Positions 3,652 to 57,657 of a DNA stretch of 57,657 bases are shown here, piece after piece. Under the pieces are notes generated by a model that was not told the DNA's origin, searched no databases, and saw only the letters and a program-made list of their open reading frames with translations. The stretch lies in NCBI GenBank assembly GCA_945910395.1, contig CAMDYX010000012.1:1-57657 (forward strand), written 5' to 3'. This DNA is from an uncultured Agathobacter sp. (GTDB lineage: Bacteria; Bacillota; Clostridia; Lachnospirales; Lachnospiraceae). Position 1 is the stretch's first letter. Each line of letters opens with the position of its first letter. A program made the position numbers and the translations under genes.

Positions 3652-4140
3652 ATGCAAAGAAAAGTAAAAGTCCTATTCGTCTGTTGGGGCAACATCTGTC
3701 GTTCCCCAATGGCAGAGTTTGTCCTAAAGGACATGGTACAAAAGAGAGGCATAGCAGATCAGTTTTATATTGCATCTGCTGCTACAAGTACAGAAGAAAT
3801 CTGGAACGGTGTCGGAAATCCGGTATATCCACCGGCCCAGGAGGAGCTTGCAAGACACGGAATTTCCTGTGAAGGGAAGCGCGCTGTGCAACTAAAAAAG
3901 TCAGACTATGAAAAGTATGACTACATCATCGGCATGGAGAAGATGAATCTAAGATATATGAATGGAATTTTGGGAGGCGACCCGGAGGGAAAAGTAAGCC
4001 TTTTGCTAGATTACGCGGATGAGCCGGGAGATATAGCAGATCCTTGGTATTCCGGCAATTTTAAAGCAACCTGGAACGATGTTGCACGGGGGTGTGAAGG
4101 TTTCCTGAACTATCTAGAGAAAGAAGGAATTCTTGGGTAA
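3652..4140 (+). CDS. Low-molecular-weight protein tyrosine phosphatase
   Basis: A 162-residue cytoplasmic enzyme that should hydrolyse phosphotyrosine on proteins. The P-loop C-x5-R signature is at C11-R17-S18 (CWGNICRS; the family usually has CLGNICRS) near the N-terminus. The general-acid aspartate sits in DPWY at residues 130-133. The length is typical. It is not arsenate reductase-like, because the DPWY acid loop is present. A weak GAGG lies about 12 nt before ATG 3652. It converges on the minus-strand prs gene, with repeat copy A between them. Its substrate cannot be inferred from the neighbours. Confidence 0.9.
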   Translation: MQRKVKVLFVCWGNICRSPMAEFVLKDMVQKRGIADQFYIASAATSTEEIWNGVGNPVYPPAQEELARHGISCEGKRAVQLKKSDYEKYDYIIGMEKMNLRYMNGILGGDPEGKVSLLLDYADEPGDIADPWYSGNFKATWNDVARGCEGFLNYLEKEGILG

Positions 4141-4142
4141 AA

Positions 4143-4523
4143 AATCTCCCATTTCAGATTTGTGTTTCTATAAATGAATTTTGCTATTCGAATCAGAATT
4201 GTGGAATTTGGCAAGATTTGAGGTTCTAGAACTGCCGTATACCTAAAATCCTTGAAAAACAGCTTCAAATTGCGGATTTTTCATGCGAATTGTATTATTC
4301 GAAGGAGTGGACTTCGCTGTATACCTAATATTTGGAATTTCTTAGGTACAGGCTAAAAATGATCCGGCAAAAATATACAATCGGCCTCCAAAATCGCTTA
4401 AAATGCCGCTTTTTCCATAGATTTTAGGTACTGGAAGAAAATCAACCAGCGAAATAATACAATTTACCAAGCAAGCATGAAGCAAAATTCATTTTCAGGA
4501 ACACAATTCCGAAATAAGAATAG
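4143..4523. repeat. Dispersed palindromic intergenic repeat, copy A (~380 bp)
   Basis: Nearly the same sequence recurs at 12608-12994, about nine positions in ten by eye. The ends are imperfect inverted repeats: 4151-4185 pairs with 4481-4515 at 30 of 35 positions. Inside are nested inverted pairs: TACCTAAAATC 4240-4250 with GATTTTAGGTA 4430-4440, and TACCTAA 4322-4328 with TTAGGTA 4342-4348. The pairs share roughly one centre (~4335), so the whole unit could fold as one long hairpin. It has no coding capacity. It lies between the convergent phosphatase and prs genes, before the prs terminator. It may be a MITE-like non-autonomous element or a structured RNA. Confidence 0.85.
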
Positions 4524-4544
4524 TATTTTTGAACAATAAAAGAC

Positions 4545-4600
4545 AAAAAAATATCGGTTTGACATTTTTGCGAAGCACTTTTGTCAAACCGATATTTTTT
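4545..4600 (-). terminator. Rho-independent terminator of prs (also workable on plus strand)
   Basis: A perfect 19-bp inverted repeat, 4545-4563 against 4582-4600 allowing for the A/T ends, has a core ATATCGGTTTGACA and a 17-nt loop. On the minus strand it ends in a T run just past the prs stop at 4617. The symmetric A/T flanks would also end transcripts coming from the phosphatase. Confidence 0.9.
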
Positions 4601-4616
4601 CTTTTATTATTAAAAA

Positions 4617-5804
4617 CTATTTATTTCTTTTCTGCTCTTCATTGTACTTATTGACGTAATTCTGGATGCGGTCATAAGGATTCAATAGATCGCTGATGGA
4701 TGCATCATGATTTAATGTGTCAATAAGGTATGCAATGTATTTACTCATGTCGCAGCTGATGTAATACTCTCTGGAGAGAAGCTCCGGAGTCTGGTAGATC
4801 AGGTTGGTTGTTACGACACGATAGATCAGGCCTTCCTCGTATGCCTTATCGAAGGATGCAAGACCATTTGTAAATAAACCGAAGGTAGAGACAACGAAGA
4901 TTCGGTTTGCCTTACGCTTCTTTAATTCTCTTGCGGTATCGATCATGCTTTCACCGGAGGAGATCATATCATCGATGATAAACACATCCTTGCCCTCTAC
5001 ATTGGAGCCTAGGAACTCATGGGCAACGATTGGATTACGGCCGTTTTCAATCTTGCTGTAATCACGGCGCTTATAGAACATACCCATATCTACCCCAAGA
5101 ACGTTTGCAAGATAGATGGCACGGGCGGTAGCACCTTCGTCCGGGCTGATGATCATAAGATGATCGGAATCAAGGGTAAGGTCTTTTACATTTTTCAGAA
5201 TGCCTTTGATGAACTGGTAGGAAGGCATTACGTTTTCAAATCCATGAAGAGGAATTGCGTTTACCACACGTGGATCATGGGCATCAAAGGTGATGATGTT
5301 GTCAACGCCCATGTTTACTAATTCCTGAAGGGCAATCGGACAGTCAAGGGACTCCCGGCCGGTACGTCTGTGCTGGCGGCTCTCATACAAAAATGGAAGA
5401 ATTACGGTGATTCTGCGGGCTTTTCCGCCAACTGCAGCGATTACACGCTTTAAATCTGCATAGTGATCATCCGGAGACATGTGGTTCGTCTGTCCGCATA
5501 CAGAATAGGTTAAGCTGTAGTTGGTTACATCCACCATAATGTATAAGTCATATCCGCGGACGGATTGATTGATGACACATTTGGCTTCGCCGGAGCCGAA
5601 TCGAGGGGTATAAGGCTTGATAATGTAGCTTTCTTTATAGTAATCCTTAAAAGCTGCTTCGTCCTGATGCTGATGCTCCCGGTTCTCCCGCCAGGTGGCA
5701 AGATACTGGTTTACCTTTTCGCCGAGCTCTAAGCAGCTGTCGGTGGGAATAAGACCTAAGGTTCCGGTAGGCATTGTCTCTAAAATTCTTTCATCGTTTG
5801 GCAT
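4617..5804 (-). CDS. prs: Ribose-phosphate pyrophosphokinase (PRPP synthetase)
   Basis: Makes PRPP from ribose 5-phosphate and ATP for nucleotide, His and Trp synthesis in the cytoplasm. Visible features are SRQHRRTGRE in the flexible-loop region, TFDAHDPR (the HDP ribose-5-P/Mg site), and the PRPP-binding loop VFIIDDMISSGES. It is about 395 residues, longer than the ~315-residue classic enzyme, as in other Clostridia. I chose ATG 5804 because GGAGGA sits 7 nt upstream; an in-frame ATG at 5831 has no ribosome binding site. It is the last gene of a dnaD-dnaI-prs run (32-nt gap) and is followed by a strong terminator. Confidence 0.93.
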   Translation of the reverse strand: MPNDERILETMPTGTLGLIPTDSCLELGEKVNQYLATWRENREHQHQDEAAFKDYYKESYIIKPYTPRFGSGEAKCVINQSVRGYDLYIMVDVTNYSLTYSVCGQTNHMSPDDHYADLKRVIAAVGGKARRITVILPFLYESRQHRRTGRESLDCPIALQELVNMGVDNIITFDAHDPRVVNAIPLHGFENVMPSYQFIKGILKNVKDLTLDSDHLMIISPDEGATARAIYLANVLGVDMGMFYKRRDYSKIENGRNPIVAHEFLGSNVEGKDVFIIDDMISSGESMIDTARELKKRKANRIFVVSTFGLFTNGLASFDKAYEEGLIYRVVTTNLIYQTPELLSREYYISCDMSKYIAYLIDTLNHDASISDLLNPYDRIQNYVNKYNEEQKRNK

Positions 5805-5836
5805 GATGAGTCCTCCATAAAGTGTTTTCATTTATA

Positions 5837-12264: not shown

Positions 12265-12528
12265 ATGAATATTACGGATGTTCGAATTCGCAAGGTGGAC
12301 AAGGAAGGCAAGATGAAAGCCGTTGTTTCCATCACAATTGAGGATGCACTTGTTGTACACGACATCAAGATCATTGAGGGAGAGAAAGGTTTATTTATTG
12401 CCATGCCAAGCCGCAAGGCCAGCGATGGGGAGTACCGCGATATAGCTCATCCAATTAACTCTGCAACAAGAGAAGAACTGCAGAACCTGATTTTAAGCAA
12501 ATACAAAGAAGAATTTGGAAACGAGTAA
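12265..12528 (+). CDS. spoVG: Septation/sporulation regulator SpoVG
   Basis: An 87-residue SpoVG, typical in length, starting [11 protein letters not shown]. The conserved core includes [21 protein letters not shown] and the [10 protein letters not shown] segment. SpoVG proteins bind nucleic acid and affect sporulation, septation and exoprotein expression. The ribosome binding site is AAGGGGG about 10 nt upstream. In Bacillus spoVG precedes glmU, prs and pth; here the nucleotidyltransferase pair glgC/glgD precedes it and pth follows after repeat copy B. It ends in a strong terminator. Confidence 0.95.
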
Positions 12529-12607: not shown

Positions 12608-12994
12608 AATCTTCTATTTCATATGTAAAATATATCGATAAAAATGAATTTTGCATATTTGAATCAGAATTGTGGAATTGGGCAAGATTTGAGGTGCTAG
12701 GACTGTCGCATACCTAAAATTCTTGAAAAACAGCTTCAAATTGCGGCCTTTTCGTGCGAATTGTATTATTTTGAAGAACTGATTTCGCTGTATACCTAAT
12801 ATTTGCAATTTCTTAGGTACAGGCTAAAATTGAACCGGCGAAAACATACAATCGACCATAAAAAGGGCTTAAAATGCCGCTTTTTTCAATGATTTTAGGT
12901 ACTGGAAGAAAATCAACCAGCGAAATAATACAATTTACCAAGCAAGCATGAAGCAGAATTCATTTTCAGGAACACAATTCCGAAAAGGGAGATT
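12608..12994. repeat. Dispersed palindromic intergenic repeat, copy B (~385 bp)
   Basis: Second copy of the unit at 4143-4523, in the same orientation. The aligned cores 12642-12985 and 4172-4514 have practically equal length and match at about nine in ten positions by eye. The right end is intact and extends to GGGAGATT, complementing AATCTCCC at the left end of copy A. The left terminal repeat is more diverged. The nested TACCTAA/TTAGGTA pairs are retained. It fills most of the spoVG-pth gap, so the pth promoter must lie upstream (a TGCTACAAT extended -10 at 12583-12591 is a candidate) or within the repeat. Confidence 0.85.
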
Positions 12995-13036
12995 CATTTT
13001 AATTAAGATATGTAAATAGAAAAAATGGAGGCATAT

Positions 13037-13612
13037 ATGTTTGTAATTGTTGGACTTGGTAATCCGGATAAAAGATATGAAAAGACCAGACACAATATCG
13101 GATTTGATGTCATTGATGCATTAGCAGATCAATATAATATAGTAGTAAAAGAAAAAAAGCATAAGGCATTATGTGGGACAGGCGCAATCGAAGGAAGGAA
13201 AGTCCTTCTGGTAAAACCACAGACCTATATGAACTTAAGTGGGGAGAGCGTTGCGGAAGTAATCCAATTCTACAAGATTGACCCCGAAAGTGAAATGCTG
13301 ATTATCTTTGATGATATCAGTCTTGCGCCGGGAAATATCCGGGTGCGCAAAAAAGGAAGCGCCGGCGGGCATAATGGAATCAAGAGCATTATTGCACATA
13401 CAGGGACACAGAATTTTATGCGAATCAAGGTCGGAGTAGGAGAGAAACCACAAGGATGGGACCTGGCAGACCATGTCCTGGGCCGTTTTTCTTCCGAGGA
13501 CCGCAAAAAAGTAGATGAAGCCATAAAGGATGCCATTTCTGCAGCAGTACTCATGATGCAGGGTGACGTAGACCGGGCTATGAATTTATATAACGCAAAG
13601 AAACAGGAGTAA
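13037..13612 (+). CDS. pth: Peptidyl-tRNA hydrolase
   Basis: Recycles peptidyl-tRNA released by stalled ribosomes. It has 191 residues. The start MFVIVGLGNP is the family N-terminus. The catalytic His follows in KTRHNIGFDVID, then PQTYMNLSGESV (Asn for tRNA binding), DDISLAPGNIRVRKKGSAGGHNGIKSI and the lid residues. ATG 13037 is preferred over an in-frame ATG at 13025 because GGAGG lies between them, 5 nt before 13037. It is followed after 3 nt by mfd, as in Bacillus. Confidence 0.95.
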   Translation: MFVIVGLGNPDKRYEKTRHNIGFDVIDALADQYNIVVKEKKHKALCGTGAIEGRKVLLVKPQTYMNLSGESVAEVIQFYKIDPESEMLIIFDDISLAPGNIRVRKKGSAGGHNGIKSIIAHTGTQNFMRIKVGVGEKPQGWDLADHVLGRFSSEDRKKVDEAIKDAISAAVLMMQGDVDRAMNLYNAKKQE

Positions 13613-20142: not shown

Positions 20143-20188
20143 ATTCACCCTTTTTCAAAGCGTTTTATATAAATTCCCTTTTAAACTT

Positions 20189-20242
20189 GCGTTCCTTAGA
20201 ATGAATTTTGCTATTCGAATATGCAAACTCATTCGGAAACAC
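20189..20242. repeat. Miniature palindromic form of the dispersed repeat
   Basis: The left half shares the 20-nt run from ATGAATTTTGC through TATTCGAAT with copy A (4174-4193). The right half is the inverted complement of the same end, in the variant GCATATTCGAAT also seen in copy B and at the window end. The result is a ~54-bp near-perfect palindrome centred on ATTCGAAT: two left ends joined head to head with no interior. It lies between convergent murA and the HD-GYP gene. Confidence 0.75.
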
Positions 20243-20257
20243 ATTTTAAAGACGGTT

Positions 20258-21530: not shown

Positions 21531-21629
21531 TCTCTTATTCAGAGTGATGGAGATACATAGGATCTGTGAAGTCACGGCAACCCCTGTTTGGAAGGTGCCA
21601 ACCTGAGCGAGTAATCGAACAATAAGAGG
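21531..21629 (+). ncRNA. SAM-I (S-box) riboswitch aptamer before metK
   Basis: The conserved S-box signatures are present in order: the P1 strand CTCTTATT (21532-21539), AGAGTGATGGAG, the GAAGTCACGGCAACC core, GGAAGGTGCCAACCTGAGCGA, and the closing P1 strand AATAAGAG (21621-21628). SAM binding stabilises P1 and lets the terminator at 21651 form, shutting down metK. A TTGACA at 21468-21473 is a possible -35, but no clean -10 follows. Confidence 0.95.
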
Positions 21630-57580: not shown

Positions 57581-57632
57581 AATTCCATCTCGAAATTGTA
57601 TTCCTAAATGAATTTGCATATTTGAATCAGAA
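57581..57632 (+). repeat. End fragment of the dispersed repeat at window edge
   Basis: The sequence from AATTCC through GAATTTGCATATTTGAATCAGAA matches the left terminal repeat of copies A and B with small changes, and then diverges from both. It may be a solo end or a more diverged copy that continues past the window. Confidence 0.6.
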
Positions 57633-57657
57633 CCCACTCTCGTTTGTAAAAAGCGTA

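Follow-up and report, generated by a model that had tools for sequence, protein, structure and literature searches.

A composite palindromic repeat of an uncultured Agathobacter is built on a 182-bp MITE whose hairpin core recurs in different palindromes of Lachnospiraceae

The window, which is the whole stretch of 57,657 nucleotides analysed here (contig CAMDYX010000012.1 of an uncultured Agathobacter sp.), contains two copies of a long repeat, A and B, each lying between genes (Table 1). Copy A starts directly 3′ of the stop of the LMW phosphatase gene and has the convergent gene on its far side, as expected from the first-pass annotation, which had placed both copies in intergenic DNA next to gene 3′ ends; for copy B this description is incomplete, because it lies between spoVG and pth, so that a gene start also follows about 30 bp downstream of it. 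A strong hairpin with 30-nt arms at 87% (positions 4535–4611) separates copy A from the convergent gene and is probably a terminator for both genes. Copy B aligns with positions 27–372 of copy A at 91% identity, in line with the earlier estimate of about nine in ten positions, and the coordinates and anatomy given at that time were correct. These include the imperfect inverted ends of copy A (4151–4185 and 4481–4515; 35 nt, 30/35 or 86% complementary), of which just 14 nt (93%) were found in copy B, whose outer left end has decayed, and the two nested TACCTAA/TTAGGTA pairs of copy A with a common centre (outer, 4240–4246/4424–4430; inner, 4322–4328/4342–4348). An extra inverted pair, AATTGTATTATT/AATAATACAATT at 4288–4299/4453–4464, has a different centre and crosses the outer TACCTAA pair. 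No open reading frame of at least 90 aa was listed over either copy, as had been noted before, and no clear target duplication was seen at A or B. Copies A and B have folding z-scores of −3.7 and −3.3, respectively, and none of 100 shuffles of each copy was equally stable.

Table 1. Genes and repeat features of the window (E, the 182-bp element; K, the 277-bp body of copy A)
Feature	Position	Strand	Basis
LMW phosphotyrosine phosphatase (PF01451), before copy A	3652–4140	+	
Copy A, long composite element (E ends and K)	4143–4523	+	one of at least 32 matches covering 270 bp or more
Left E terminal arm, copy A	4146–4198	+	nhmmer end profile, E=7.5e-12
K body of copy A, replacing the E core	4200–4476	+	full-length matches in own genome only (299 family genomes)
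Outer TACCTAA of K, partner 4424–4430	4240–4246	+	7/10 helix pairs invariant, 28 copies
Inner TACCTAA/TTAGGTA hairpin of K	4322–4348	+	read in the sequence; K-copy alignment
Right E terminal arm, copy A	4481–4515	−	nhmmer, E=4.8e-9; inverted repeat I1
Ribose-phosphate pyrophosphokinase-like, convergent, after copy A	4617–5831	−	
SpoVG (PF04026), before copy B	12265–12528	+	
Copy B, long composite element, spoVG-pth interval	12608–12994	+	repeat match and locus comparison
Left E arm, copy B, decayed	12642–12669	+	nhmmer, E=0.014, partial
Right E terminal arm, copy B	12952–12991	−	nhmmer, E=6.5e-11
Peptidyl-tRNA hydrolase (PF01195), pth, after copy B	13025–13612	+	
Arms-only E remnant, 60-bp palindrome without core	20187–20246	+	nhmmer, E=5e-7 and 1.6e-6, convergent pair
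Short-form E truncated by contig end; left arm and start of core side	57582–57657	+	nhmmer, E=1e-10

A search with copy A in its own genome (G000, a 3.14-Mb draft in 127 contigs, 89% complete) gave at least 78 matched places, of which at least 32 covered 270 bp or more of the query, and these are lower bounds, 40 of the 337 first-look candidates having been scored. The terminal repeats were found 160 + 161 times at up to three mismatches (reversed control, 0), and these 321 ends, together with the long copies, bear out the early impression of a dispersed, mobile-looking palindromic family. The ends, NTCCCWTTTCGGAA, delimit a parental element of 182 bp, here termed E, that is almost wholly palindromic; in the first 441 kb sampled, 47 end pairs had a spacing of 178–182 bp, to which one variable base is added at either end. 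A larger sample of 790,118 bases, made of 40 stretches partly chosen for holding matches and the window, contained 102 copies of the hairpin core of E, 93 with both E ends, eight with one end and one with none. Perfect 8-bp, A/T-rich target duplications flanked 16 of the 93 E (shuffled mean 0.31, maximum 4) and were absent from the other 77, and flanks matching at 7 or more of 8 positions were found in 23 (shuffled mean 1.57, maximum 6). None of the 93 overlapped a called ORF (simple ORF calls) by more than 100 bp, with median distances of 16 bp (gene 3′ ends) and about 100 bp (gene starts); this set supersedes an earlier, smaller gene-context set (n=47; five ORF overlaps of more than 60 bp, orientation 22:6). 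In the 790 kb of the 3.14 Mb, convergent end pairs were short pairs only, and no autonomous element with E ends was found among them. End pairs 3–4 kb apart in one stretch (L062), considered as an autonomous E, were read instead as separate elements.

Among 60 genomes of the genus, own included, copy A matched the own genome and G055 only, and in G055 the ends only; locus L040 of G055 and locus L080 carry the same element and flank. No E was found in phages, and the exact pattern had no match in viral contigs. The site of copy B was compared at 13 congeneric loci, two of which lacked pth, leaving 11 with both genes. The spoVG-pth distance (matched parts) was 88–225 bp at nine of these and 656 and 768 bp at the remaining two, against 500 bp with copy B; the nine short intervals are taken as empty sites in relatives, which the first-pass annotation had named as a mark of mobility. 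By the features tested, i.e. inverted ends, fixed duplications, no coding capacity, dispersed copies and empty sites, E is a MITE, and for annotation it accounts for more than 100 intergenic repeats in its own genome. In the cited passages of PMC10969869, bacterial MITEs are short, ORF-less elements with terminal inverted repeats, target duplications and many intergenic copies, and E is like them in all these respects; it differs in its conserved apex hairpin, which is common to MITEs with unrelated ends, and in that a parental insertion sequence was not found.

The unit of about 380 bp, previously regarded as the basic element, is instead a composite in which E ends surround K, itself built of palindromic motifs, and copies A and B are without the hairpin core of the short parental E. 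In the 30 long copies, K runs straight into the right arm of E with the core gone in nine (A and B included), is followed by the E interior in 12 and is unclear in nine; the left junction classes were set aside, because the loose motif also matches the E end. Outside the own genome, K had no full-length match in 299 family genomes, with two candidates scored per genome, and two genomes had matches of 24 and 45 bp. In an alignment of 28 of the 30 K copies (those with an aligned span under 235 were left out), 20 of the 27 counted pairs never varied and two-sided changes numbered 0. K therefore gives no evidence for selection on pairing, and the proposal that its TACCTAA pairs are under selection for folding was not upheld by this check; the invariant short motifs of K would fit protein-binding sites. 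In keeping with the early impression of a new-looking repeat, the element had no Rfam match at gathering scores (11 sources). Up to E=1, the stretch of copy A had eight Rfam matches, all below gathering scores, and one of these, RNAI (E=0.95), was inside the copy.

Strong structural conservation was found in the core of the short E, which A and B lack. A covariance model of this core had no match in the window up to E=10 with default filters, and with filters off the best match was E=0.18, at the hairpin after copy A, and E=2.5 within K. The core has about 89 nt, CGGTACTAAATTCG-apical hairpin-CTCATTAAGTRCCG, and features common to the aligned cores are an ACGCTYTCGCT-like motif, unpaired and on the 5′ side of the stem, an AR bulge, and A.A and TC/TC mismatches; the apical and basal helices are variable in sequence yet paired, and the conservation of the central strands is by construction in this pattern-selected set. 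In L107 and L128, from two genomes, the ACGCTYTCGCT motif is interrupted at a similar point by related insertions of about 60 nt. The exact core pattern was found in at least 79 stretches of 84,980 species genomes, at least 35 of them from one genome, CAJTEN. The covariance model, which used 35 of the 36 aligned sequences (L098 was left out), had at least 150 matches in the own genome and matched 125 of 299 family genomes (about one genome per genus; about four in ten). Class-wide, 12 of 391 genomes matched, 12/12 of them in the same family, Lachnospiraceae; filtering was strict in these two wide searches, with no more than 14 or 11 candidates scored in any genome, and weak or extra copies were therefore missed. 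A further search of related loci covered 64 loci, with one of the 35 CAJTEN loci and two G000 stretches.

In 83 aligned core matches (82 distinct), 97.9% of cells were paired and 268 cells had two-sided changes, compared with 64.5 after shuffling and at most 34 after sliding, in an alignment whose fitting to the model favours pairing. One pair was T.G in 29 of the 82 sequences, and all other G-U cells totalled six. The core was not found in plasmids. A 38-nt core match at 288–324 of MT839396.1, a 4.3-kb record of a human faecal phage that carries no annotation, was the sole phage match. Outside G000, none of 94 cores lay within a called ORF, and no gene at a fixed distance was found among the core loci. 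As for candidate gene partners, the largest recurrent neighbour cluster (14 loci) proved to be a translation of the repeat itself, and the largest cluster of a second comparison, with six genome labels, had no fixed distance or strand.

The sequences around the core were compared through an arm match score. In 95 distinct elements outside G000, the median score of an arm with its own partner was 19.5, and that between genomes was 6.5 (90th percentile 9.0). Among 15 multi-copy genomes, the median between copies was at most 10 in ten, 11.5–17.5 in three, 28 in a genome resembling G055 and 45.5 in CAJTEN, whose copies have arms in common; those of G000 share arms as well. With arms that vary from genome to genome and frequently from copy to copy, the core is embedded in many different palindromes. 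Inspection by eye of L084, L091, L102, L149, L159, L162 and CAJTEN often showed GGACG at the left limit of the arms and CTGTG or similar at the right limit, which is a possible further conserved boundary. CAATGTC ends flank 25 of the 29 distinct cores of CAJTEN and may resemble IS231-type ends; 14 of these 25 (13 distinct sequences) have perfect 10-bp duplications (shuffled mean 0.96, maximum 6). The fitting length is 10 bp, and 9-bp flank repeats, with four cases against a shuffled maximum of 4, did not exceed the control. Five of the 25 (L075, L076, L079, L109 and L142) are centred in a TTACTATTCACGGC-type palindrome and have no duplications, and in four more (L077, L082, L088 and L118) an arm of the TTACTATTCACGGC-type hairpin is duplicated over 9 bp. 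Since E has 8-bp duplications and other ends than the CAJTEN element, the two would use different transposases. An element of G166 (L157) has 82-bp arms that are 96% alike. Neither its arms nor its core are present at the corresponding site of G365, where the flank is 91% identical, or in seven further congeners, and across 13 genomes of the genus, own included, its arm matches its partner only. The joint absence of arms and core indicates that this element arrived as a unit; a comparison of G249 with three congeners is compatible with unit arrival and less clean, with flanks at 74–75%.

Ten core loci of G266 were compared with 18 congeneric loci (genus g208), and eight of the ten are common to G266 and G547. 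At these eight loci the core is identical at 622 of 633 positions (98.3%) with one gap, the arms at 615 of 780, and the aligned 10-kb surroundings are 89–95% identical. Conservation as high as in these cores, with twelve changes over eight loci, was reached by 0.005% of random coding sets and by 0.4% of intergenic ones. The comparison is biased in that each locus had a model match in both species; within that limit, so few changes make selection on the core likely. The arms are little changed at five of the eight loci. At two loci both arms have changed, with own pairing scores of 19 and 21 against cross-species scores of 10 and 6 (L229/L235), and of 17 and 21 against 10 and 9 (L230/L239); at a third (L225/L234) the diverged arms still pair in one species (23) and scarcely do so in the other (9). 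In total, 20 arm changes were concerted and 98 one-sided, with 14 of the 20 concerted changes at L229/L235. The change of arms around an unchanged core at two loci implies that arms need not date from insertion, and the apical stems stay locus-specific, which makes homogenisation between copies unlikely. G744 seems to have an empty site where G266 and G547 carry one of their cores (75 bp versus 327). A steady core with rewritten and re-paired arms at two loci offers a natural system for measuring the upkeep of palindromes in bacteria.

Taken together, A and B are probably decayed members of a composite MITE family, in which E was moved in trans and carries a portable core acting at the DNA level, with arms that may at times be rewritten by template switching. 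A DDE transposase would move E in trans and give the 8-bp duplications of A/T-rich intergenic targets. K may have entered E near the apex, resulting in the 380-bp form, one class of which, A and B included, would then have lost the E core. The core itself is portable and occupies the centre of unrelated palindromes across the family, at least two of them being different MITEs (with 8-bp and 10-bp duplications). A protein of Lachnospiraceae might recognise its folded DNA on one strand, MITEs might carry it since it helps their spread or upkeep, and the flanking arms could sometimes be rewritten and re-paired via template switching. Both the transposase of E and the DNA-level function of the core are what we infer here. 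The wide occurrence of the core, its presence in MITEs with different ends and its slower change than neighbouring coding DNA point to a common binding partner. Several observations count against this explanation: no autonomous element with E ends was found in the 790 kb sampled and no gene at a fixed distance from the core, a clear target duplication was not seen at A or B nor a perfect one at 77 of 93 E, E in G000 is oriented with its neighbour genes, the one T.G core pair would be tolerable in RNA, and re-paired arms are clear at two of the eight loci. A more specific version, in which the core is a DNA-level element of one family, under purifying selection and acquired by unrelated transposons, and the cell rewrites its flanks into matched arms by template switching, is put forward tentatively.

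Template switching at hairpins is described in the cited passages of PMC8794818 and would account for double changes that keep pairing and skip a G-U intermediate; it is a mutational mechanism rather than a mobile element, and in our case it would affect the arms and spare the core. The core is also similar in its logic to MRSC-65-2, which in the cited passages of PMC11109978 has a long covarying stem and dozens of copies per genome and is proposed to be selfish or to act at the DNA level. According to these descriptions the two are set apart, MRSC-65-2 by its diverse phyla and UYCCGG repeat, the present core by having been found in one family and by CGGTACTAA...TTAAGTACCG. No description of the portable core was found by core strings or by topic in literature other than subscription journals and preprints, nor in the consulted passages of PMC2267715.

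It is doubtful that the arms are target sequence, i.e. that the core inserts at the tips of existing palindromes or copies its flank inversely. This idea is favoured by the variation of arms between copies in one genome, by the five of 25 CAJTEN elements that are symmetrical within another palindrome, and by two cases seen by eye, the upstream terminator at L160, which has an inverted copy beyond the core, and L229, where one of the species alone has an inverted repetition of about 10 of 13 nt of the conserved flank. However, the arms of L157 are absent together with the core at the G365 site and are unmatched elsewhere in the genus, and two orthologous loci have changed arms around a steady core.

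A structured RNA (sRNA, 3′UTR element or cis-regulator) with the arms as its stem is unlikely. On the one hand, the covariation is strong, there are conserved unpaired motifs, and E in G000, with its short distance to gene 3′ ends, is co-oriented with tandem neighbour genes (45:13, p=3e-5). On the other hand, the orientation of cores to tandem genes is 19:19 outside G000 and 6:8 in CAJTEN, few G-U cells were counted apart from the one pair, one core searched in Rfam up to E=1 had no match, and no gene at a fixed distance was found. The near absence of G-U and the lack of core orientation outside G000 favour a hairpin at the DNA level, and the orientation bias in G000 is the main result against it. 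E in G000 is also oriented with the local GC-skew sign (68:25), and its bias with respect to neighbour genes suggests that transcription or replication matters there.

It appears quite improbable that the core is just a neutral leftover of an old MITE and owes its conservation only to the youth of related copies. The copies are alike within G000 and within CAJTEN, as such a relic would predict, but the core changes less than the surrounding coding DNA at the eight orthologous loci, model-matched loci only being compared, and the locus-specific apical stems speak against homogenisation. Movement of a REP/REPIN-like hairpin by a Y1 (RAYT or IS200-type) transposase is disfavoured to the point of being hardly credible: GYAR stands just 5′ of a conserved mismatched hairpin that is intergenic and in high copy, but PF01797 was not found in G000 (a draft, 89% complete) and occurs in 68 of 125 core-positive versus 106 of 174 core-negative genomes (p=0.29), and E makes 8-bp duplications. 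Intergenic hairpins with a short 5′ tag and high copy number are shared with REP/REPIN and RAYT as given in the cited passages of PMC3733652, from which the present elements are distinguished by 8- or 10-bp duplications, long arms and no Y1 association.

In addition to these repeats, the window contains a SAM riboswitch aptamer at positions 21532–21628 (+; 67.5 bits), and the related loci also contain a T-box leader (L063, 7575–7879), a TwoAYGGAY RNA (L125, 386–547) and an FMN riboswitch (L072, 4909–5058).
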